From Paenibacillus sp. RUD330 (GTDB taxonomy: Bacteria > Bacillota > Bacilli > Paenibacillales > Paenibacillaceae): 64,000 bases of DNA. Made by a program: the position numbers and the translations under genes. Where the stretch lies: positions 3,164,501-3,228,500 of the forward strand of contig NZ_CP022655.2 of the NCBI RefSeq assembly GCF_002243345.2, read 5' to 3'. This document shows positions 1,752-58,255 of this stretch, piece after piece. The notes beneath the pieces were generated by a model. It was not told where the DNA came from, made no database searches, and saw nothing but the letters and a program-made list of their open reading frames with translations. Each line of letters starts with the position of its first letter. The first letter of the stretch is position 1.

Positions 1752-2140
1752 CGTTCCCCTAACCCCTTCGCGAATGAGTTCACGTTCCTCATTGTACCAT
1801 CGCGAGCAGGCGATGAGAACGGCCAGGAGCTTCCCTGCTGCATGTCCGCCGTTCATTTTGACGGCACGAAGGCCACCTTCCTTCCGACCGGCATCCGGCA
1901 ACCGCCGCCCCTATCCGGAGCGCCTTGGCCGCAGGCAAGTCTTCCGTCTGCGCCATCGACCGGGAAGCAGCGGACGTAAGGAGTCTCTTGCCTCCCATAA
2001 TAGGACTCCCGCAGGCCATGAACCGGATCCAGAAATCACATTAATGTGGATCAACAGCACAGACGCCTATGAATAAGAGCAAAAACACGGCAACCAGGCT
2101 CCTCCACCGCTGTATGAGATAAATGCCCTTCGTTTGCAAC
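1752..2140. other. Gene-free stretch upstream of the MazG-like gene
   Basis: Short overlapping open frames here look like out-of-frame readings of G+C-rich DNA; none has a convincing ribosome binding site or a recognisable domain. The part next to 1751 should hold the promoter of the minus-strand MazG-like gene. I see no other structure. Confidence 0.5.
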
Positions 2141-2143
2141 AAA

Positions 2144-2171
2144 AATCGGGCGCCCCTTGCGGGGCGCCCTT
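2144..2171 (-). terminator. Terminator after the 274-residue membrane protein
   Basis: GGGCGCCCC-TTGC-GGGGCGCCC hairpin followed on the minus strand by GATTTTT. It lies about 120 bases beyond the stop codon of the membrane-protein gene at 2292. Confidence 0.8.
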
Positions 2172-2291
2172 ATCATGGGAGAGGAGAAACCGGACGAAGA
2201 GCTTATGGGGAAACGTAAGCCTTCTCCGCGGTGTCTACGGCATCTCTCGACGCCGATATCCTCATGATGCCCGCTTACCGGACATTTATAC

Positions 2292-20705: not shown

Positions 20706-21764
20706 TCAGGAAAAATACAGCCGGCGCGCGTTCGCCGCCAACGCAAAGGCAGCCTCTCTCTCGTCCATCCCTCTCAGACGGGCGATTTCCCCGACCGACT
20801 CCCGCATCATGAGCGGATGGGTCGCCTGCCCGGCGAACGGCCCCTCGAACGGCCACGGACCGTCCGTCTCCGTCATGAGACGCTCCAGCGGGTACGAGAC
20901 GGCAAGCGGGCGGATTTCCTCCTCGTAGAGCACATCCGGAGTGAGCGAGATGTAGAATCCGGCATCCGCGAGCATTCGCGTCACGGCCTCGTCTCCCTTG
21001 TACCAGTGGAAATGCGCGCGGGCGACGCCGAATTCCCGCAGCAGCTCCAGCGCCTTGGCGGCGTCCTCGTAGACGGCATGCAGAATGATGACTCGTCCGG
21101 TATCGGCGGCAAGGGAGACGAATTCCCGCAGGATGCGCAAATGCCCCGCGTCGTCGAATTTCCGTCCCGCCGCTTCGGCCTCCGTCCGCATGTAGTAAGG
21201 AAGGCCGACCTCGCCGATCGCGAACGCCTCCCCGGCTTCATGGCGCTCCCGGATCCAGGTCAGCAGCGCCTGCATCTCGGCCTCGTCCGGAAGCTCCTGC
21301 TCCGGATGCCAGCCGTAAGCCGGCATGATCCGGCCGGGATGCGCCCGGGCGAGCTCCCGCGTCCGCTTGGCGGAATCCAGATCCATGGACACGGCGACCG
21401 CCCCCGTCAGGCCGCCGCTGAACGACTGCTCCAGCATGCTCTGGAGCTCATCCGCGGCATACTGCTCCAGATGGATGTGGGTGTCGATGAGCGGCAGCCG
21501 GGCCCCGCTCATCGACGCCGCTTCATTCCGGCAGTCGGAGGCGTCGCCCCGGCTCTGCGGCGTCTGCGGAAGCCCCGGCTCCGAAGCGCTGCCGGGCAGC
21601 TCCAGCCGCGGCGCGTTCCCCGACGGCTCCAGCTCGGAGCGCTTCCAGGCAGCTCCAGCTGCGGTGCGTTCCCCGACGGCTCCAGCTTCGGAGCCCTTCA
21701 CGGCAGCTCCAGCCGGCGGCGATGACGACTTTCCGGATCCAGCATCTGCTCCCAACGGGTTCAT
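20706..21764 (-). CDS. TatD-family metal-dependent hydrolase, last gene of the thiamine-precursor operon
   Basis: A 352-residue protein. An 85-residue low-complexity extension rich in Gly, Ala, Glu and Pro precedes a TatD-type amidohydrolase barrel. Candidate metal ligands are visible: His95 and His97 (IDTHIHLEQ), Glu in GEVGLPYY, His in IILHAVY, His in AHFHWYKG and Asp in ETDGPWP. The ATG overlaps the ThiZ stop (ATGA), and GAGGGGG lies upstream, so translation is coupled and the long start is favoured. A second ATG at 21512 would remove the extension, but it has no ribosome binding site. TatD proteins are usually nucleases or amidohydrolases. The context suggests an enzyme acting on imported thiamine breakdown products. 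Confidence 0.82.
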   Translation of the reverse strand: MNPLGADAGSGKSSSPPAGAAVKGSEAGAVGERTAAGAAWKRSELEPSGNAPRLELPGSASEPGLPQTPQSRGDASDCRNEAASMSGARLPLIDTHIHLEQYAADELQSMLEQSFSGGLTGAVAVSMDLDSAKRTRELARAHPGRIMPAYGWHPEQELPDEAEMQALLTWIRERHEAGEAFAIGEVGLPYYMRTEAEAAGRKFDDAGHLRILREFVSLAADTGRVIILHAVYEDAAKALELLREFGVARAHFHWYKGDEAVTRMLADAGFYISLTPDVLYEEEIRPLAVSYPLERLMTETDGPWPFEGPFAGQATHPLMMRESVGEIARLRGMDEREAAFALAANARRLYFS

Positions 21765-24800: not shown

Positions 24801-24845
24801 TCACTTGAATCCATTTGCGCCCGAGGGCGGCAAAAGGCTCGGCTG

Positions 24846-24940
24846 ACATGCGGTTCCTACGCTGGCATTATCCAGATCAGGTTTAACGGGTCGGGATGCT
24901 TCTCCCCTCTCAGCCGGCGTACGCCAGCTCCCCAGGCTCA
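24846..24940 (-). ncRNA. TPP (thiamine pyrophosphate) riboswitch
   Basis: The minus strand carries the THI-element core: GGGGAGCTGG near the 5' end, CTGAGAGG in the pyrimidine-sensing arm, ACCCGTTAAACCTGATCTGG, and AATGCCAGCGTAGGAA at the 3' end. All invariant blocks are recognisable. It precedes a terminator hairpin and the thiY operon. Confidence 0.96.
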
Positions 24941-24959
24941 TTCGGTTGTCAATAGAGCC

Positions 24960-49552: not shown

Positions 49553-49686
49553 TATAAATGCAAGCGCATTCAAACCCAATCGTTTCGCCACTCCCCATCA
49601 AGGAGGTGAGCCTCGGGAGCGCAGGGACCGATCTCCCGAACAAGGCTTGGAAAGCAACCTATTCCGAACAAAAGAGGTGTTTCGTG

Positions 49687-51792
49687 ATGATTCGCAAGCT
49701 TGCGGCAGCCAGTCTCGCATTGGCCTGCACATTGTCCTTCTCCTTCGCCGCATCCGCCGAGCCGGACGCTCAGAAGAGCCTCCCGTCCGGTTCCATCTCC
49801 TGGCCCCAGCAGCAGCAGCTCCCCCGCTTCGCCAAGGCCAAGCAGCTTGAAGTGGCGGATATCTATGACGCTCCCGGCGATGTGAAGCTCCTTCTGGCCA
49901 CGCTCCAAGGCCTTGTCAACCGCAGCGAGCCGCGCATTTATTTGCTCGAGAGCAAGGAAGAGGGCAAGTTCGCCTGGCTGAACGATCTCGACGTCCCTTA
50001 CAAGGTCCGCGACAATGAATGGTCGCTGCTGGACAAGTTCAAAAGCGAGGTCAAGGGCATCGTCGTTTATGACCCTGGAGTGCCTGATTCCATCAACGTG
50101 GCGACCACCCTGGCGGGAATCAAGGATGCGGTCGTCGCGAGCCCCGAGCTGGCGAAAAAGCTGACGGCTCCTCCTTATTCCTTCAAGGTGCTCGACGACC
50201 TGCAGGGCCGCTTCAAGGACCGGCTCGATGCCTACGCCTGGCAGTACGAGCATCTATGGAGCCAGACGACCCACCGGATGCTCGTCGGCCTCAGCCCCGA
50301 TACGTCCGTCCGCCTGCCGTCCACCGGCATCCCGGCCTCGTACAAGACGGTCGCGCAGGAGACGTCGCAGGAGCGGGACGCGGGCAACCGCAAGGTGTAC
50401 GACCTCGACCTGTCGCCTTTCCTCGGCGGGCAATCGGTCTATCTGCGCTTCGACGACGCCTTCCCCGAGGACGGCTGGGGACCGGCCGTGCACGAGGTTA
50501 CCGTCAAGGCCGACGGGCAGACGATCGCGAGCTTCGTTCCCGGCACTCCCGAGGAGGAGCCGTTCCTGTACGACGCCCAGAGCTCCCAGGTATCGGCCGG
50601 CAGCGGCGGCCACCGCTTCGCCGACAACGGACGTTACTTCGTCTACCGCTTCACGCCTCCGGCAGGGACCAGGCAGCTGACGGCATCCGTCGAGATGTGG
50701 AACCAGTTCAAGGTCAGCGCCGGCAGCGAGCAGCCGGCATCCTCCGGGCAGAGGGAGCCTTACGGCTACCTGCGCGACTACGCCGTCGCGAACAAGGCGA
50801 TGGTATTTTGGCTCGACTCCAACGTGCCGGCGCAGCGGGAGCTGTTCGAGCGCATCCTGTCGGATGTGCAGCCCGGCACCCCTTATCTCGGCTGGTTCAG
50901 CAACGATACCGTCGGCGAATTCAGCTCCGTGGAGATCACCTCCAGGCACAGCGTGTACGTGCTTGCCGCCGACTGGTTCAGCAACATGACCGTATTCTCG
51001 GGCGGCAGATCGGCGGCTTCGCCGCTCAAGGCGGCCAAAGCTCCGAAGCTGCAGAACAAGATCTACGTCACCTATACATTCAGCGAAGGCGACAACCTCC
51101 AGTACAACCAGCATCGGATGCGCGTCCTGTGGGACGATCCTTCCCGCGGCAAGGTGCCGCTCAACTGGACGTCCAGCCCGCTGCTGTACGACGGCGCTCC
51201 GGCCATTCTGGACTACTACCTGAAGACGGCGACGTCCAGCGACCAGCTCATCTCCGGACCTTCCGGCGCCGGGTACTTCTATGCGAACGCCTGGCCGGAC
51301 AGCACCTTCCCGTCCTATTTGAAGGCAACCTATCCGTACCTGAAAAAAACCGGCATGACGATCCCGTACGTGCTGAACCGCAACGACAGCGAAAACGTTC
51401 CGCTCAGCGACGCGAAGGCGGAAGCCTATGCCGACGAATACCATGCTCCCGGCCTGTTCCTCAGCTGGGAAGACCGCTTCGGCGTCGAGCTGGCCAAAAA
51501 CAAGCTGCCGGTCTCGACGATCCAGGGCATCGGCACGGTCAAGGACGGCCAGCGCATTCTGGCGGAAGCCAAGGCGAAGTGGGACGGCAAGTCGCCCCTC
51601 TTCATCTCGCTCGGCCTGCTCGCCTGGAACATGACCCCGAGCGACGTCGTCGCCTTGAACAGCTCTCTCGGTCCTGAATTCGAAGCCGTCCGGGCCGATC
51701 AGTACTTCTCGCTCGTCCGCGAGGCGAACGGGCTGCGGCCGTTGTCCGGCAAGGCGGAACAGGAGCAGCAGGAGCAGCAGGAGCAGCCATAA
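49687..51792 (+). CDS. Secreted GxGYxYP-domain protein (putative glycoside hydrolase)
   Basis: A 701-residue exported protein with a signal peptide at residues 1-27 (ASA cleavage). The GxGYxYP family of unknown catalytic type is recognised by LLATLQGLVNRSEPRIYLL near the start, FWLDSNVPAQRELFERIL, TYTFSEGDNLQYNQHRMRVLWDDP and the name motif as GPSGAGYFYANAWP. A beta-sandwich-like insertion (about 210-340) resembles a carbohydrate-binding module. AGAGGTG precedes ATG 49687. The C-terminus is an EQQ repeat. Divergent from the GntR-LacI regulator. Confidence 0.85.
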   Translation: MIRKLAAASLALACTLSFSFAASAEPDAQKSLPSGSISWPQQQQLPRFAKAKQLEVADIYDAPGDVKLLLATLQGLVNRSEPRIYLLESKEEGKFAWLNDLDVPYKVRDNEWSLLDKFKSEVKGIVVYDPGVPDSINVATTLAGIKDAVVASPELAKKLTAPPYSFKVLDDLQGRFKDRLDAYAWQYEHLWSQTTHRMLVGLSPDTSVRLPSTGIPASYKTVAQETSQERDAGNRKVYDLDLSPFLGGQSVYLRFDDAFPEDGWGPAVHEVTVKADGQTIASFVPGTPEEEPFLYDAQSSQVSAGSGGHRFADNGRYFVYRFTPPAGTRQLTASVEMWNQFKVSAGSEQPASSGQREPYGYLRDYAVANKAMVFWLDSNVPAQRELFERILSDVQPGTPYLGWFSNDTVGEFSSVEITSRHSVYVLAADWFSNMTVFSGGRSAASPLKAAKAPKLQNKIYVTYTFSEGDNLQYNQHRMRVLWDDPSRGKVPLNWTSSPLLYDGAPAILDYYLKTATSSDQLISGPSGAGYFYANAWPDSTFPSYLKATYPYLKKTGMTIPYVLNRNDSENVPLSDAKAEAYADEYHAPGLFLSWEDRFGVELAKNKLPVSTIQGIGTVKDGQRILAEAKAKWDGKSPLFISLGLLAWNMTPSDVVALNSSLGPEFEAVRADQYFSLVREANGLRPLSGKAEQEQQEQQEQP

Positions 51793-51887: not shown

Positions 51888-52703
51888 TCAGGCCAGATTC
51901 CATTCCTCATGAATTTTCGGCACATCCGCGATGAGCTGCTGCGTGTAGGCATGCTGCGGCTGCAGGATGACCCGCTCCGCCGGCCCTTTTTCCACGATGC
52001 GGCCTTTCTCCATAATATAGAGCGTATCGCTCACGTAATAGGCCAGCCCGACGTCATGCGTGATGAAGATGATCGTCATCCCGTTCTCCTCCCGCAGCTT
52101 CATGAGCATGTCGAGAATGGTGGAGCGGGAGCAGGCGTCGATCATCGAGGTCGGCTCGTCGGCGATCAGGATGCGCGGCCGCATCATGAAGATGCGCGCG
52201 ATCATGAGCCGCTGCATCTGCCCGCCGGACAGCTCGAACGGGTACTTGTTGTACAGCTCGTCGAATTTCAGGTTGACGAACGAGCAGGCGTCGATCATCC
52301 GCTTGCGCTCTTCGTCCTTGGTCAGCTGCAGATTCTGCAGGGCGATGCAGTCCCGCAGCAGCTTCTCGACCCGGTGGAACATATTGAACGAGGAGAACGG
52401 GTCCTGGAAAATCGCCTGGATGTCCTTCCAATAATTCCGGCGCTCCTTATGCCCCTTCAGCCGTCTGGGAGCTCCTTCGTATTGTATCCTGCCGCCCGTT
52501 TCCTTGAGCAGGCCGAGCAGCATCTTGGCGAGCGTCGTCTTGCCGCTGCCGCTCTCTCCGACGATGGAAATGATCTCGCCCTTGTGGAAGGCGAAGTCCA
52601 CTTCCCGCACGGCCGTCTTCTTCTTTTTGCCGTAGCCGAACACCTTGGTGACGCCGACTCCGGCGAGCAGAATGTCCTTATCGCTGAACTTCTTCATCCG
52701 CAT
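51888..52703 (-). CDS. Opp/Dpp-type ABC transporter ATPase (OppF-like)
   Basis: A 271-residue ATPase. Walker A is GESGSGKTT (about 48-56), then [15 protein letters not shown], the signature [14 protein letters not shown] and Walker [13 protein letters not shown]. The C-terminal zinc/iron-type cysteine segment of OppF is short. A second ATG two codons in has better ribosome binding site spacing. It overlaps the OppD-like gene by 26 bases. Substrate: peptide or oligosaccharide (see the cre site entry). Confidence 0.9.
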
Positions 52704-53739
52704 ACCACTCCTTCAAGGTTTCCACGCCGAATATGCAGCGGTACGTCCTGCCGGCCTCCCCGCGCATCGGAATCTTGCCGCTGCGGCATTCCTCCCGCGC
52801 GAAGTCGCAGCGCTCCGCGAAGCGGCAGCCTTCCGGCACGTTCTTGAGGTTGGGCGGAGCTCCGGGAATGGCGGACAGCTTGTGGTCCTTCATGCCTTCC
52901 TCGGGGACGATGATGGAGCCCATCAGCCGCTTGGTGTAAGGATGGACAGGATCGAACACCATCTGCTGCGCCATGCCCCGCTCGACGATCTCGCCCGCAT
53001 ACATGACCATGATGTCGTCCGTCACATGGTAGAGCAGCGGCAGCTCATGCGTGATGAAGATGAGGGAACGGATGAATTTCTTCTCCAGCAGCTCCTTGAG
53101 CAGGCGGATGACCGCCTTCTGCGAGGTGACGTCGAGCGCGGAGGTCGGCTCGTCGGCGACGAGCACCTTCGGATTGAGAATGGTCGAGATGGCGATGACG
53201 GTCCGCTGCTTCATGCCGCCCGACAGCTCGCTCGGATAGGCGTCCAGCACCTCCGGAGCGAGATGCAGCGTGCGGAACCTCTCCTCCGCCATCGCCCTCA
53301 CCTGCGGCTTCGTCAGCTTGGGCTGATGCTCCTTCATGAGATCCTCGATGAAGCGGATGATCTTCAGCGTCGGATTGAGCGCGTTCATCGCCGCCTGCGG
53401 AATGTAGGCGATCTCCCGGCCGAGAATCTGCTTGCGCAGCCGTTCCTTGCCGAGCTTCATGATATCGATGCCGCCGATGGAGATGGAGCCTTCCCCGTAA
53501 TAAAGAGGCGGGAAATAAAAGCCCATCAGGCTCATCGACAGCGTCGACTTGCCGCAGCCGGACTCGCCGGCGATGCCGAGCGCCTTGCCCTCCTCGAGCG
53601 CGAAGTCGACGCCGTCGACGGCGAACACCTTTTCGTTCAGGCGCGTCCGGTAATACGTCTTGAGCCCCTCGACCTCCAATACGCGCCGCAGGGGCTCGGG
53701 GGCAAGTTCGGGTTGCAGATCCGCCAGCTTCCGGCTCAT
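52678..53739 (-). CDS. Opp/Dpp-type ABC transporter ATPase (OppD-like)
   Basis: A 353-residue ATPase. Walker A is GESGCGKST (about 59-67), then [15 protein letters not shown], signature [13 protein letters not shown], Walker [13 protein letters not shown]. The C-terminal [15 protein letters not shown]...YRC cysteine cluster is the Dpp/Opp type that can hold an iron-sulfur centre. It overlaps both neighbours by a few bases. Confidence 0.92.
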
Positions 53740-54581
53740 GCGCGCTCACTCCTGATTTTCGGATTGAAGATCTCGTCCATGCCGGTGTTGATCATGTACA
53801 GCGAGAAGGTGATGACGGCGATCGAGAAGGCCGCCGGGATGAACGCCCACCACGCCCCGGCCACCGGAGCCTCGAAGACGAGCGCCCAGTTCATGATGAT
53901 GCCGAGCGAAATCGTGTTGTACGGCCCCAGGCCGAGCATCGAGATGGAAGCCTCCGACAGGATGCCGGAGGCGACCTGCAGGATGAAGGCCATGACGACA
54001 TAGGAAGCGATATACGGCAGGATTTCGAAGACGATGATCTTCGGTGTGCTGTGTCCCGATATTTTGGCCAGATTGACATGGTCCCGGTTCCTCAGCGAGC
54101 TCGTCTGCGCGCGTACCGCCCGCGCGGTCCACGGCCAGCTCGTCAGGCCGATGATGACGGCGACGAGCAGCGAGCTGCGGGAGTTGATGCTGACGGAGAT
54201 GAGGATCAGGATGATGAACGACGGAATGACGATGAACATGTTCGTGACCGCGGTCAGGATATTGTCGAGCAGGCCCCCGGCGTATCCGCACAGCAGCCCG
54301 ATCGCCAGGCCGATGATCGTGGCGAAGACGCCCGCGACGAGGCCGACCATGATGGAGGTGCGGATGCCGTAGACGAGCTCCAGGAACAGGTCGCGGCCGA
54401 AGTTGTCGGAGCCGAGCAGCAGCCTCCCGCCCGGAGGCTGGAACGCCAGCGCCTCCATCGACAGCGGGTCGGCCCGGTTGATCAGCGGCACGATGACGAC
54501 AAGCGCGACCATCAGCAGCAGCATGATGGCGCCGAACATGAACTTGGGCGAACGGATCAGAATGCCTACGGAATGCTTCAT
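53736..54581 (-). CDS. Opp/Dpp-type ABC transporter permease (OppC-like)
   Basis: A 281-residue inner-membrane permease. The OppC N-terminal helix is followed by [34 protein letters not shown], the signature of the C-type permease, then the [24 protein letters not shown] coupling loop. One base separates its start region from the OppB-like stop, so they are one operon. Confidence 0.92.
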
Positions 54582-54582
54582 C

Positions 54583-55602
54583 TCAGTTCTCCTCCATTTG
54601 GGACGCCTTGATGCGGGGATCGACGATGCCGTAGACGATCTCGATCGTGAAGTTCGCCAGCAGCACCGTCAGCGCGATCAGCAGCGTGCAGCCGGAGATG
54701 AGCGGGTAATCCAGCTGCCGGATGGCCGTGAACAGCCAGGTGCCGATGCCGGGGTAGCTGAAGACGATCTCGCAGATGAGCGAGCCGCCGACCATCGTGC
54801 CGATGGACAGGGCAAGGCCCGTAATTTGCGGCAGCATCGCATTCTTGAACACATACCGCGCCACTCGGGAATCGCGGATGCCGAGCAGCTTGCTGTACAG
54901 CACATAGTCGGAGTTCAGCTCGTAGATGCTCATCTCCCTCATGCCGATCGCCTGGCCGCCGATCGTGACGAGCACGATCGAGAGGAACGGCAGCGTGTGG
55001 TGGCGGAGCACCGAGAGGATGAAGTCGAGGCTGAGATGCGGCACCATCTGATAATCGTAGCCTCCCGACATCGGGAACCATTTCAGCGTGATCGCGAGCA
55101 GGTACAGCATGATGATGGCGAGGGTGAAAAAAGGGATCGAATTCACGAACAGCGCCGCCGGGAACAGCACCTTGTCGAAGACGCCCTTGCGGTAGGCGGC
55201 CACCGCGCCGAGCACGTTGCCGATGATCCAGCCGACGAGGATGGCGGGAAGCTGGAGCGCGACCGTCCAGGGGACGGCGGCCATCAGGATGTCGGACACC
55301 TTGCGCGGGTACAGGCCGAATGACGTTCCGAGGTCGCCGGTGACGAGCTTCTGGAGGTAGATGCCGAACTGCGCGAGGAGCGGTTTGTCCACCCCGAACT
55401 CCTTCATGAAGTTGTCGTACACCTTCTTGATGGAATCGCTGTCCGTCATTCCTTGCGACACCTGGGAGGCGATCGTGCTGACCGGGTTGCCCTCGATGAG
55501 CCTCGGCAGCAGGAAATTGAGAATCAGCGCGATCAGCAGCGTGACGAGATACCAGCCGGACTTCTTCAGGAAATAGCGGGCGTAGGCGTTCAAGAGCTTC
55601 AC
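54583..55602 (-). CDS. Opp/Dpp-type ABC transporter permease (OppB-like)
   Basis: A 339-residue permease. It has the LIALILNFLLPRLIEGNPVS start, GDLGTSFGLYPRKVSDILMAAVPWT, and the coupling loop ELNSDYVLYSKLLGIRDSRVARYVFKNAMLP. The start may be GTG 55602 or TTG 55593; AAAGGAAGG is spaced better for the TTG. Upstream lie a strong hairpin and the 191-bp repeat array, which separate it from its binding-protein gene. Confidence 0.9.
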   Translation of the reverse strand: MKLLNAYARYFLKKSGWYLVTLLIALILNFLLPRLIEGNPVSTIASQVSQGMTDSDSIKKVYDNFMKEFGVDKPLLAQFGIYLQKLVTGDLGTSFGLYPRKVSDILMAAVPWTVALQLPAILVGWIIGNVLGAVAAYRKGVFDKVLFPAALFVNSIPFFTLAIIMLYLLAITLKWFPMSGGYDYQMVPHLSLDFILSVLRHHTLPFLSIVLVTIGGQAIGMREMSIYELNSDYVLYSKLLGIRDSRVARYVFKNAMLPQITGLALSIGTMVGGSLICEIVFSYPGIGTWLFTAIRQLDYPLISGCTLLIALTVLLANFTIEIVYGIVDPRIKASQMEEN

Positions 55603-55618
55603 CTTCCTTTAAGGGAAA

Positions 55619-55644
55619 GGGCCGGCCGCATTTGCGGCGGCCCT
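55619..55644 (-). terminator. GC-rich hairpin between the repeat array and the OppB-like gene
   Basis: AGGGCCGCCGC / GCGGCCGGCCC arms around AAAT on the minus strand, followed by TTTCCCTT. It is shaped like a weak terminator and sits just before the permease ribosome binding site, so it may reduce read-through from the binding-protein gene. Confidence 0.55.
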
Positions 55645-55689
55645 GTGGTTGCGAGGCGATGATTGCGGACAAGGCTTGACCATGCATGC

Positions 55690-56357
55690 GCGATCGGAGG
55701 AGAGATCGGCACGCGCAGCGGCGGTTCGGTCCGGCTGCAAGCGGAGATGGCCGCGCAGCTTCAAGGTCCGGCTGCCCGGAGCGGAGCGGGCCGATTCTCT
55801 CTGGAGAAGCAACGCGTTCGCCTTTGAACGAGGATGCCTACCCTGGCAGGGGTCAGCCATCAGAGCATCCGAGTTCAACCGCGATCGGAGGAGAGATCGG
55901 CACGCGCAGCGGCGGTTCGGTCCGGCTGCAAGCGGAGATGGCCGCGCAGCTTCAAGGTCCGGCTGCCCGGAGCGGAGCGGGCCGATTCTCTCTGGAGAAG
56001 CAACGCGTTCGCCTTTGAACGAGGATGCCTACCCTGGCAGGGGTCAGCAATCAGAGTATCCGAGTTCAACCGCGATCGGAGGAGAGATCGGCACGCGCAG
56101 CGGCGGTTCGGTCCGGCTGCAAGCGGAGATGGCCGCGCAGCTTCAAGGTCCGGCTGCCCGAAGCGGAGCGGGCCGGTTCTCTCTGGAGAAGCAACGCGTT
56201 CGCCTTTGAACGAGGATGCCTACCCTGGCAGGGGTCAGAAATCAGAGCATCCGAGTTCAACCGCGATCGGAAGAGAGATCGGCACGCGCAGCGGCGGTTC
56301 GGTCCGAATGTCCGGAAGCAGAGCCGGCCGGCGCAGCTTCAAGGTCCGGAGGAACTG
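55690..56357. repeat. Tandem array of a 191-bp repeat, three full copies plus a partial fourth
   Basis: Copies begin at 55690, 55881, 56072 and 56263, each with GCGATCGGAGGAGAGATCGG. Copies 1 and 2 differ at two positions that I can see, copy 3 at a few more, and copy 4 diverges after about 47 bases. Each unit holds the dyads GGATGC...GCATCC and CCCTGGCAGGG. The unit is not a multiple of three and is stop-poor in every frame, so open frames across it need not be genes. It lies inside an operon, between binding-protein and permease genes. Confidence 0.93.
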
Positions 56358-56364
56358 AATTCCG

Positions 56365-58209
56365 TCAGTTCGAAATCTTATAGAGAGCCTTGATGCCCGC
56401 CCCGTCCATCGCGATCTGCGGCGGAATGTTGCTGCCGTCCCCGTCGACCGGGAAGCCCTTCCAGACCGACTCGTTCACGGTGTAGAACACCCAGGGACGG
56501 TACATCAGCGGAATGGACGGAACGTCCTTCAGCCAGATTTGCGTCAGCTCCGTGTACATCGTCTTGGCTTCGGCGTCGGATGCGGTCGGGATCTTGTCGA
56601 TCAGCTGGTCGGCCTTGTCGTTTTTGTAGCGGCCCCAGTTCCAGAAGGCCATCTCGCCTGCCGGCGCCACGCCTTTGGAATACATGATCGTGCGTGCGCG
56701 GCTCCACGGATTGCTCGGCGTCACGTTGCCCGCCGGCGTGTTCATGATGATGTCGAACTTACCCGTCTGCAGGTCGTTCGTCCATACCGGAGCTTCCGGG
56801 AATTTCGTGCGGATCTCGATGCCGATCGCCTTGGCGCTCTGGGCGACGATCTCCAGCGCGGCGTTCCAGTCGGACCAGCCGTACGGGCATTCGACATCGT
56901 ACGGGCCGAGGCGCTGGCCGTTCAGCACGCGAATGCCGTCCTTGCCCTTCTTGGCCCCGATGCTGTCGAGCAGCGCGTTCGCGGCCTTCGTGTCCGTCGT
57001 CCACTGCAGCGACTTGATGGCGTCCTGGTCGACGAACTTGGACTCCGCCGGCGTATCGAGCGTCAGCGAAGGCTTCATGTCGCCCGAATAACCGCTCATG
57101 GCCAGCTGCGACACTTTCTTGTAGTCGATGGACATCGCGATCGCCTTGCGGACTTCCGGCGAATCGAGGCCTTTCTTCGACATATTGAAGAAGATGGACG
57201 GCATCGAGCCCGGCAGATAATAAGGAGCCTCCTTCAAATAAGTCTTGATCGGAGCGTTCTCCTGCATCTTCCACACCTGCGGCGTGAATTGCTGCGAGAC
57301 GTCCACCTGGCCGCTCTTGAACGCCAGGTCCCCGGCCGCGTTGTCCTTGTAGATGACATGCGTGATATATTTCGGAGCAGGCAGCTTGCCGAACAGCTTC
57401 TGGCCCCAATAGCTGTCGTCGCGGATGAGCGTGATCTTCTGGTCGTTGTAGAACATGAGCTTGTAGGGTCCGGTGCCGACCGGATCGGCGTTCATTTCCT
57501 TGCGGATCGTCGCCAGGTCGTTGTTCGACTTCGTCTCGATCGCTTCCCAAATATGCTTCGGAAGCATCGGCATCAGCTCGATGCTCTCGGTTACGGTCAG
57601 TTTGTTGGCGTTGGCAGGGTTCAGGCTGATGACGACCGCATTGACTCCGTCCGCCTTGACGTCCTGGATGTAATCCCAGTAGCTGGACCAGTTGAGCTCG
57701 TATTTTTTGCCGAGGCCATAGGTATACACGACATCATCGGAAGTAAAAGGCTGGCCGTCGCTCCACTTGGCGTCCGGGTTCAGCTCGATGCGCAGCGTCT
57801 TGTCGTCCGTCCAGCTGTACGACTTGCCGAGGAGAGGCTCGAGCTTTCCGTCGATCATGTTAATCATGAACAGCGTTTCATACACGAGCTCGCGGGAGTT
57901 GCCGTAGTTGATCGGAAAAGCCGGGTTGCCGCTCAGCAGGTTGAAGTTGGTCGGCGCTCCCCACTGCAGGCCGTTGATATAGAGCGTCTCGTTGCGCGGC
58001 GTTTCCTTGGCTCCGCCGGAGCTGTCGGTGCTCGCGGTCGGCTGCGGGCTGGCCGAAGGATCGGCGCTCGCGGCCGGCTCCTTGGTCGCCTCCGTCCCTC
58101 CGGTGTTCGCCGCGCTTGTCGGCGGCGGCGTGGAATTGCTGCATGCGGCCAGCAGCGACCCCGTCATCATGACCGAGGCGAACGTTAAGGCTAGCGCTTT
58201 ACGCTTCAT
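56365..58209 (-). CDS. Family 5 (Opp/Dpp-type) substrate-binding lipoprotein
   Basis: A 614-residue exported binding protein. The lipobox is LLAA-Cys23, followed by a Thr/Ser/Pro-rich linker, then NETLYINGLQWGAPTNFNLLSGNP and the family core WSDGQPFTSDDVVYTY, DPVGTGPYKL and RKAIAMSIDYKKV. ATG 58209 follows GGGAGAGGAAGCC. The WGxPxNFN start is one I associate with Opp-like proteins that bind oligosaccharides; this and the cre site suggest a sugar ligand, but peptides cannot be excluded. Confidence 0.9.
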   Translation of the reverse strand: MKRKALALTFASVMMTGSLLAACSNSTPPPTSAANTGGTEATKEPAASADPSASPQPTASTDSSGGAKETPRNETLYINGLQWGAPTNFNLLSGNPAFPINYGNSRELVYETLFMINMIDGKLEPLLGKSYSWTDDKTLRIELNPDAKWSDGQPFTSDDVVYTYGLGKKYELNWSSYWDYIQDVKADGVNAVVISLNPANANKLTVTESIELMPMLPKHIWEAIETKSNNDLATIRKEMNADPVGTGPYKLMFYNDQKITLIRDDSYWGQKLFGKLPAPKYITHVIYKDNAAGDLAFKSGQVDVSQQFTPQVWKMQENAPIKTYLKEAPYYLPGSMPSIFFNMSKKGLDSPEVRKAIAMSIDYKKVSQLAMSGYSGDMKPSLTLDTPAESKFVDQDAIKSLQWTTDTKAANALLDSIGAKKGKDGIRVLNGQRLGPYDVECPYGWSDWNAALEIVAQSAKAIGIEIRTKFPEAPVWTNDLQTGKFDIIMNTPAGNVTPSNPWSRARTIMYSKGVAPAGEMAFWNWGRYKNDKADQLIDKIPTASDAEAKTMYTELTQIWLKDVPSIPLMYRPWVFYTVNESVWKGFPVDGDGSNIPPQIAMDGAGIKALYKISN

Positions 58210-58255
58210 GGCTTCCTCTCCCCATTCCTCAACTAAATTGGATGCCTTCCCCATA

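Follow-up and report, generated by a model that had tools for sequence, protein, structure and literature searches.

We found that the 191-bp tandem array in a transporter operon of Paenibacillus sp. RUD330 is most probably a local amplification of a non-coding, hairpin-forming repeat that is dispersed through Paenibacillus and related genera, with dozens of copies in Paenibacillus genomes. The observations computed here are the dispersal of the repeat, covariation within its fold, its presence or absence at matching sites of different species, its avoidance of promoter-side gaps, and arrays of various periods at several loci. Our best reading of the element itself is an apparently mobile, structured small repeat like bcr1, BOX and ERIC, for which we found no existing name.

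The array and its operon

The array stands out in the window (the whole 64,000-nt stretch of DNA analysed) with 96% matches and a TRF score of 1200; the eight remaining TRF rows score at most 209. Its 191-bp unit is composed of a 133-bp core and a 58-bp linker (Table 1). The preliminary description had placed a tandem array of this period between the binding-protein and permease genes, with three near-identical copies and a partial fourth, dyads of its own in each unit, and a GC-rich hairpin at its end. TRF confirmed the array in this gap, three full cores and a 33-bp core tail were found, and a dyad search within the units showed the dyads to be real; the hairpin also exists, but it stands beyond the array, close to where the permease gene starts, rather than forming its end. 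Cores 1 and 2 are identical at 131 of 133 positions and core 3 agrees with either at 129 of 133, while the two linkers between cores are identical at 57 of 58 positions. According to the dyad search, pairing across the linker between adjacent array copies is also possible.

Table 1. Positions in the window of the array components and of the surrounding operon genes
Feature	Position	Strand	Basis
Second ABC ATPase	51888..52703	-	Pfam
ABC ATPase with oligo_HPY domain	52678..53739	-	Pfam
Second ABC permease, BPD_transp_1	53736..54581	-	Pfam
ABC permease, BPD_transp_1 (PF00528)	54583..55602	-	Pfam
Intergenic gap, binding-protein gene / permease gene	55603..56364		ORF positions
GC-rich hairpin beside permease start, outside array; similar sequence in G004	55620..55643		Dyad search and G004 comparison
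191-bp tandem array, 3.4 copies	55689..56349		TRF
Partial core: 33-bp 3' tail of element, permease side	55689..55721	+	TRF and copy alignment
58-bp linker	55722..55779	+	Copy alignment
Element core, copy 1, 126.0 bits	55780..55912	+	Covariance-model match
58-bp linker	55913..55970	+	Copy alignment
Element core, copy 2, 125.4 bits	55971..56103	+	Covariance-model match
58-bp linker	56104..56161	+	Copy alignment
Element core, copy 3, 129.3 bits	56162..56294	+	Covariance-model match
Degenerate linker remnant, after third core, before binding-protein stop	56295..56364	+	Copy alignment
Solute-binding protein, SBP_bac_5 (PF00496), family 5	56365..58254	-	Pfam

The operon lies on the minus strand, and the better-folding strand of the core (plus) is antisense to it. 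Adjoining the operon on the opposite strand is a putative GxGYxYP glycoside hydrolase with four GxGYxYP Pfam domains (49558-51792, plus strand). Other features of the window are Rfam matches to a TPP riboswitch (24836-24944, minus strand, 63.3 bits) and a ylbH leader (2138-2231, plus strand, 76.3 bits), and a further tandem repeat at 21578-21721 (TRF; 53 bp x 2.7, 84% matches).

A dispersed repeat family

DNA searches of the own genome found scattered relatives of the unit, most at 68-76% identity, and all eight genus genomes searched, the own genome among them, had DNA matches to the element. We extracted 41 copies and aligned 33 for a covariance model, omitting eight that were near-duplicates or had diverged outer arms. 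With this model the own genome gave 42 matches at E<=0.01, of which 39 reached E<=4.5e-7 (20 on the plus and 19 on the minus strand); the genome-wide search for the 191-bp unit that the preliminary description had proposed thus yields 39 confident copies. That the array arose by local amplification from a dispersed family goes beyond what that description could see.

The family was found at E<=1e-4 in 121 of 148 genomes of the taxonomic family (up to 22 matches scored per genome) and in 86 of 119 genomes of the order (up to 28). At E<=1e-5 it was found in 27 of 299 genomes of the class (up to 11), and all 27 come from the same taxonomic family. A motif scan of named genomes has Paenibacillus species, Gorillibacterium timonense and Saccharibacillus sacchari among the matches listed. 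Phage records gave no element matches and plasmid records gave two, from P. cellulosilyticus; one plasmid match (L363 2501-2637) ends about 28 bp from the glyS stop and is antisense, as the window's copies are.

The window copies matched no Rfam family at gathering score; with the search relaxed to E 10, the best match inside the array was radC, at E 1.1 and 16.9 bits against a cut-off of 40. No such Paenibacillus repeat is described in the titles and abstract openings listed by our searches of open-access literature, and a description elsewhere is possible. An RNA-seq study of P. riograndensis reports 27 intergenic small RNAs, most without known function (PMC5670726), and the element might be among them; the portion of its text examined does not contain the word 'repeat'.

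A covarying hairpin

The core folds best on the plus strand, as one long irregular hairpin. RNAalifold predicts 35 pairs from the 33-copy alignment, which was built from sequence alone, and 28 of these show changes on both sides. Cells pair under the predicted structure in 95.9% of cases, against 77.8% after shuffling and 31.7-46.6% when the structure is slid along the alignment. None of 500 shuffles attained any of five measures, a result that is not a p-value because the structure was tested on the alignment it came from and the copies are related; the sample also leans towards structure, since several of the eight omitted copies had diverged outer arms. Despite this circularity the distance from the slid controls remains large. 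The covariation supports the proposal in the preliminary description that the unit could belong to a structured family.

On the plus strand G-T cells outnumber A-C cells, by 45 to 17 in alignment A1 and by 143 to 80 in alignment A2, for which 105 matches at 80 named loci were fitted to the model. Folded as a single sequence, core 2 has z -3.11 on the plus strand and -1.89 on the minus strand; folding of the whole unit is weaker (z -1.67 and -0.54).

From the outside in, the hairpin is predicted to comprise a variable outer stem, then a stem that covaries, then an asymmetric internal loop in which a nearly invariant GGAGAAGC motif faces the GCGATCGGA strand, and finally an inner stem whose tip varies. 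The outer stem extends beyond the model: among 102 isolated copies, the window's array copies being left out, 36.3% score at least 20, against 4.2% of mismatched flanks, which come mostly from other species. In 15 of the 20 best cases, several of them related and from one species, this stem starts no more than 5 bases from the core on either side. Its sequence varies among copies and by species, yet is complementary within a copy.

Genomic placement and inverted pairs

Gene context was assigned with a crude codon-based gene caller at 103 loci holding 152 matches (100 of the 105 from named genomes, 33 of a further 38, three from the window and 16 from other own-genome loci), truncated, weak or antisense partial matches being excluded. 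Four matches fall inside called ORFs. The 91 element-bearing gaps divide into 67 codirectional, 22 convergent and 2 divergent, as compared with 149, 26 and 48 among the 223 other gaps of at least 60 bp. Divergent gaps are thus rarer (p=2.6e-6) and convergent gaps commoner (p=0.009) where the element occurs, although a few of the loci are orthologous and the p-values are somewhat too good. Orientation relative to neighbour genes shows no strand bias, with 102 on the same strand and 100 on the opposite. A riboswitch-like cis-regulatory RNA would hold a fixed sense position ahead of related genes; the element instead occurs in both orientations, with 2 of its 91 gaps divergent.

Where two copies form an inverted pair within one gap, their 5' ends point inward in 16 of 16 cases, of which L119 and L120 are probably one event. 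The complete own genome has five inverted neighbours less than 1.2 kb apart, again all with 5' ends inward. A common spacer was considered for these pairs and rejected: similarity over long stretches is confined to P. cymbidii and to the comparison of L119 with L120, while copies in P. baekrokdamisoli have short flanks in common and some short matches to L126 occur. The P. cymbidii spacers (L172 5829-6449, L174 3980-4623 and L166 4759-5588) contain another palindromic repeat around GCCAGTGA..TCACTGGC, and L172 and L174 have the whole composite of about 660-690 bp in common, at 84%.

Evidence for mobility

At all three own-genome sites tested (L070, L087 and L124, chosen by us), five congeneric species (G001, G003, G005, G006 and G007) have a short gap instead. 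At L070 the element is present in G000 and G004, flanked by a terminator-like hairpin and a ribosome-binding site, and the five gaps measure roughly 40-110 bp against about 300. At L087 it is again present in G000 and G004, the gaps in the five measure roughly 23-97 bp against 280, and the region has no match in G002. L124, where the comparison is one of gap lengths, has an inverted pair embedded in unmatched sequence of about 1.5 kb, in place of which the five species have roughly 67-120 bp and G002 about 350 bp. Presence in two species and absence in five could also be loss. At the L070 site, the G002 gap (L343) holds by eye an element-like sequence that runs the opposite way, suggesting that it was inserted independently.

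When 26 own loci were compared with 1.59 Mb of G004, the element position was covered at seven (L065, L070, L076, L081, L083, L086 and L087) and the element was kept at all seven; movement is therefore slow.

The units have discrete ends in some species. In P. baekrokdamisoli, nine copies of one subfamily have a unit of about 200 bp in common, with roughly 94.5-98% pairwise identity that ceases at the unit ends; a second, more diverged subfamily adjoins several of these copies. P. thalictri has a discrete unit of about 160-175 bp, and boundaries are less sharp in P. cymbidii. By eye we saw no clear or general target-site duplication, and palindromic ends would mask short ones. In P. thalictri, a flank of about 16 bp is repeated on both sides of the element at L163, and elements lie within terminator-like stems at L163 4985, L181 5715, L192 7444 and L215 2662.

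A Y1 transposase (PF01797, RAYT) was considered as mobiliser and rejected for lack of any match in the own genome; 5 of 14 control genomes do match. A scan of 3.1 Mb of sequence for an autonomous parent, taken as two element halves around a gene, gave two separated same-strand pairs; its 3' motif misses the GTGGAATCGGA subfamily, so that many of the 86 lone 5' halves are false.

Probable amplification of the array

In the close relative G004 the operon is also present but carries a single element, which lies 17 bp from the binding-protein stop, and the left flank there has a small duplication of its own; at E<=1e-30 the region had no match in the other six genus genomes. The array cores are identical to the G004 copy at 121-122 of 135 positions, and among themselves at 129-131 of 133. 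Being closer to each other than to the G004 copy, they indicate that expansion or homogenisation of the array followed the split of the two, unless G004 underwent contraction or its assembly, a draft of about 110 contigs in which repeats could be collapsed, lost copies. Two expectations of the preliminary description agree with this comparison: copy number differs between relatives, with one in G004 and three here, and copies so nearly identical accord with recent expansion or homogenisation.

Tandem arrays of the element occur elsewhere, with periods of 171 bp in G002, 274 and 420 bp in G007, 210 bp at another own-genome locus and, by match spacing, 151 bp in Paenibacillus sp. NEAU-GSW1. The linkers differ between arrays, and duplication in place is therefore favoured over repeated targeted insertion.

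Some loci have smaller repeats as well: the 3' part of the element is tandemly repeated at L123 5075-5390 (86-bp spacing) and at L122 4220-4327 (38-bp period), and in G007 (L119 3388-5101) the element arrays have 18-bp and 50-bp tandem arrays next to them and in the stretches that separate them.

Alternative explanations

It is possible, if somewhat doubtful, that the array is chiefly there because it was selected for cis-regulation of this operon, with stacked mRNA hairpins determining how much binding protein is made relative to permease, a reading compatible with amplification of a dispersed repeat. It would account for an array that separates the binding-protein gene from the first permease gene, and for the retention of one element at the same place in G004. 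The 762-nt operon-strand intergenic RNA also folds well (z -2.41, with none of 20 shuffles as good), and the operon strand carries three terminator-like sites, one per copy, where shuffles average 0.8. However, these sites, the only terminator-like ones found, are stems of five pairs, other copies adjoin varied genes in both orientations, and the region is unmatched in six of the eight genus genomes, which leaves no long-term conservation to judge by.

An independently transcribed or trans-acting plus-strand RNA, for example a sponge for a protein that binds the internal loop, appears improbable. The G-T excess favours plus as the folded strand and the unpaired motifs are nearly invariant, but a sigma-70-type scan found no sigma-70-like promoter in the array, the copies are unbiased in strand relative to their neighbours, and they are present or absent between species.

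Action as DNA only, whether as a cruciform, a protein-binding site or a replication or recombination signal, is in our view also quite unlikely. The palindromic nature of the element, its tandem amplification at several loci and the one-way inverted pairs would suit such a role. The element ends AGCGG appear to match the Chi sequence of Bacillus subtilis. The excess of G-T over A-C on one strand points the other way, though single-stranded DNA would show the same, and the avoidance of divergent gaps does not discriminate.

Near-identical tandem copies such as these are a known assembly hazard, but an assembly artefact is very improbable here, the own genome being assembled in two contigs, the array copies differing at 2-4 positions, and similar arrays occurring in the single-contig genomes G002 and G007.

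Comparison with known repeats

Compared by description, the element resembles several known families. Like bcr1 of the Bacillus cereus group, with a mean of 39 copies per strain, it is a dispersed non-coding repeat of Bacilli with mobile-element traits, but its host group is another, and BCR mobility there is linked to a TTTAT motif (PMC6542083). BOX, RUP and SPRITE of Streptococcus pneumoniae are likewise small, interspersed and slow-moving, with strong predicted RNA folds; BOX can influence neighbouring genes and has variable tandem boxB arrays, but it amplifies an inner module, whereas our element amplifies the whole hairpin and one flank (PMC3049150). ERIC/IRU, whose transcripts form long stem-loops and take part in mRNA stability, and other MITE-like repeats share its length of about 100-200 bp and its long stem-loop (PMC2229807). 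It differs from ERIC/IRU in that we established no consistent terminal inverted repeat and target duplication, and in the GC-rich cores of the own genome. Like REP/REPIN sequences it is palindromic and extragenic and occurs in inverted pairs, but REPs are 20-40 bp (PMC3733652) and the core here is about 133 bp, with no match to the RAYT-type Y1 transposase in the own genome.

As for MITEs in general, the element is small and non-coding, has discrete ends at sites that are unrelated to each other in P. baekrokdamisoli and P. thalictri, and differs in presence between relatives at three of three sites against five species, where loss would be an alternative. As to terminal inverted repeats, about a third of isolated copies have an outer stem, the sequence of which differs by species. 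Bacterial MITEs are described as AT-rich (PMC3049150), in contrast to the 62-63% GC of the window cores and the 42-61% GC of the matches in named genomes.

Proposed origin and significance

We infer that copies spread as a non-autonomous mobile unit for whose propagation the fold matters. One copy would have entered behind the binding-protein gene before the split between the own species and G004, and slippage or unequal exchange would later have turned it into three. The preliminary description suggested that the array could tune how much transcript reaches the permease, and an influence on permease expression is plausible: three strong hairpins between the binding-protein and permease messages, if co-transcribed, could shift the relative stability of the two. 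In E. coli, REP sequences between malE and malF protect the upstream message. ERIC (PMC2229807) and BOX (PMC3049150) are further repeats with such effects. We tentatively suggest that stacked hairpins might act on message stability here too, protection of the upstream binding-protein part being the likelier direction, although ERIC in Yersinia, which lowers the stability of upstream transcripts (PMC2229807), speaks against that direction. Counting against local amplification of a mobile, dispersed repeat are the missing Y1 transposase match, the lack of a clear target-site duplication, cores that are not AT-rich, and a better-folding strand that is antisense to the operon. Taken as a whole, the interpretation in the preliminary description is partly supported.

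A more speculative proposal, which we consider rather unlikely as it stands, is that these are structure-propagating elements across the order, with a mobilising machinery that recognises the folded strand itself, as RNA or as a single-stranded DNA hairpin. The stems would then drift by compensatory change while the two internal-loop motifs stay fixed, and inverted pairs would form in one orientation only. If the fold does drive propagation, the family would lend itself well to studying selection that acts on the shape of a hairpin and not on its sequence.

With about 40 copies in a genome and a presence in most sampled genomes of the order, the element would rank among the common non-coding features of Paenibacillus. 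It also offers natural experiments, in one operon that occurs with a single copy or with three, and in gene pairs that differ between species in whether they hold the element.
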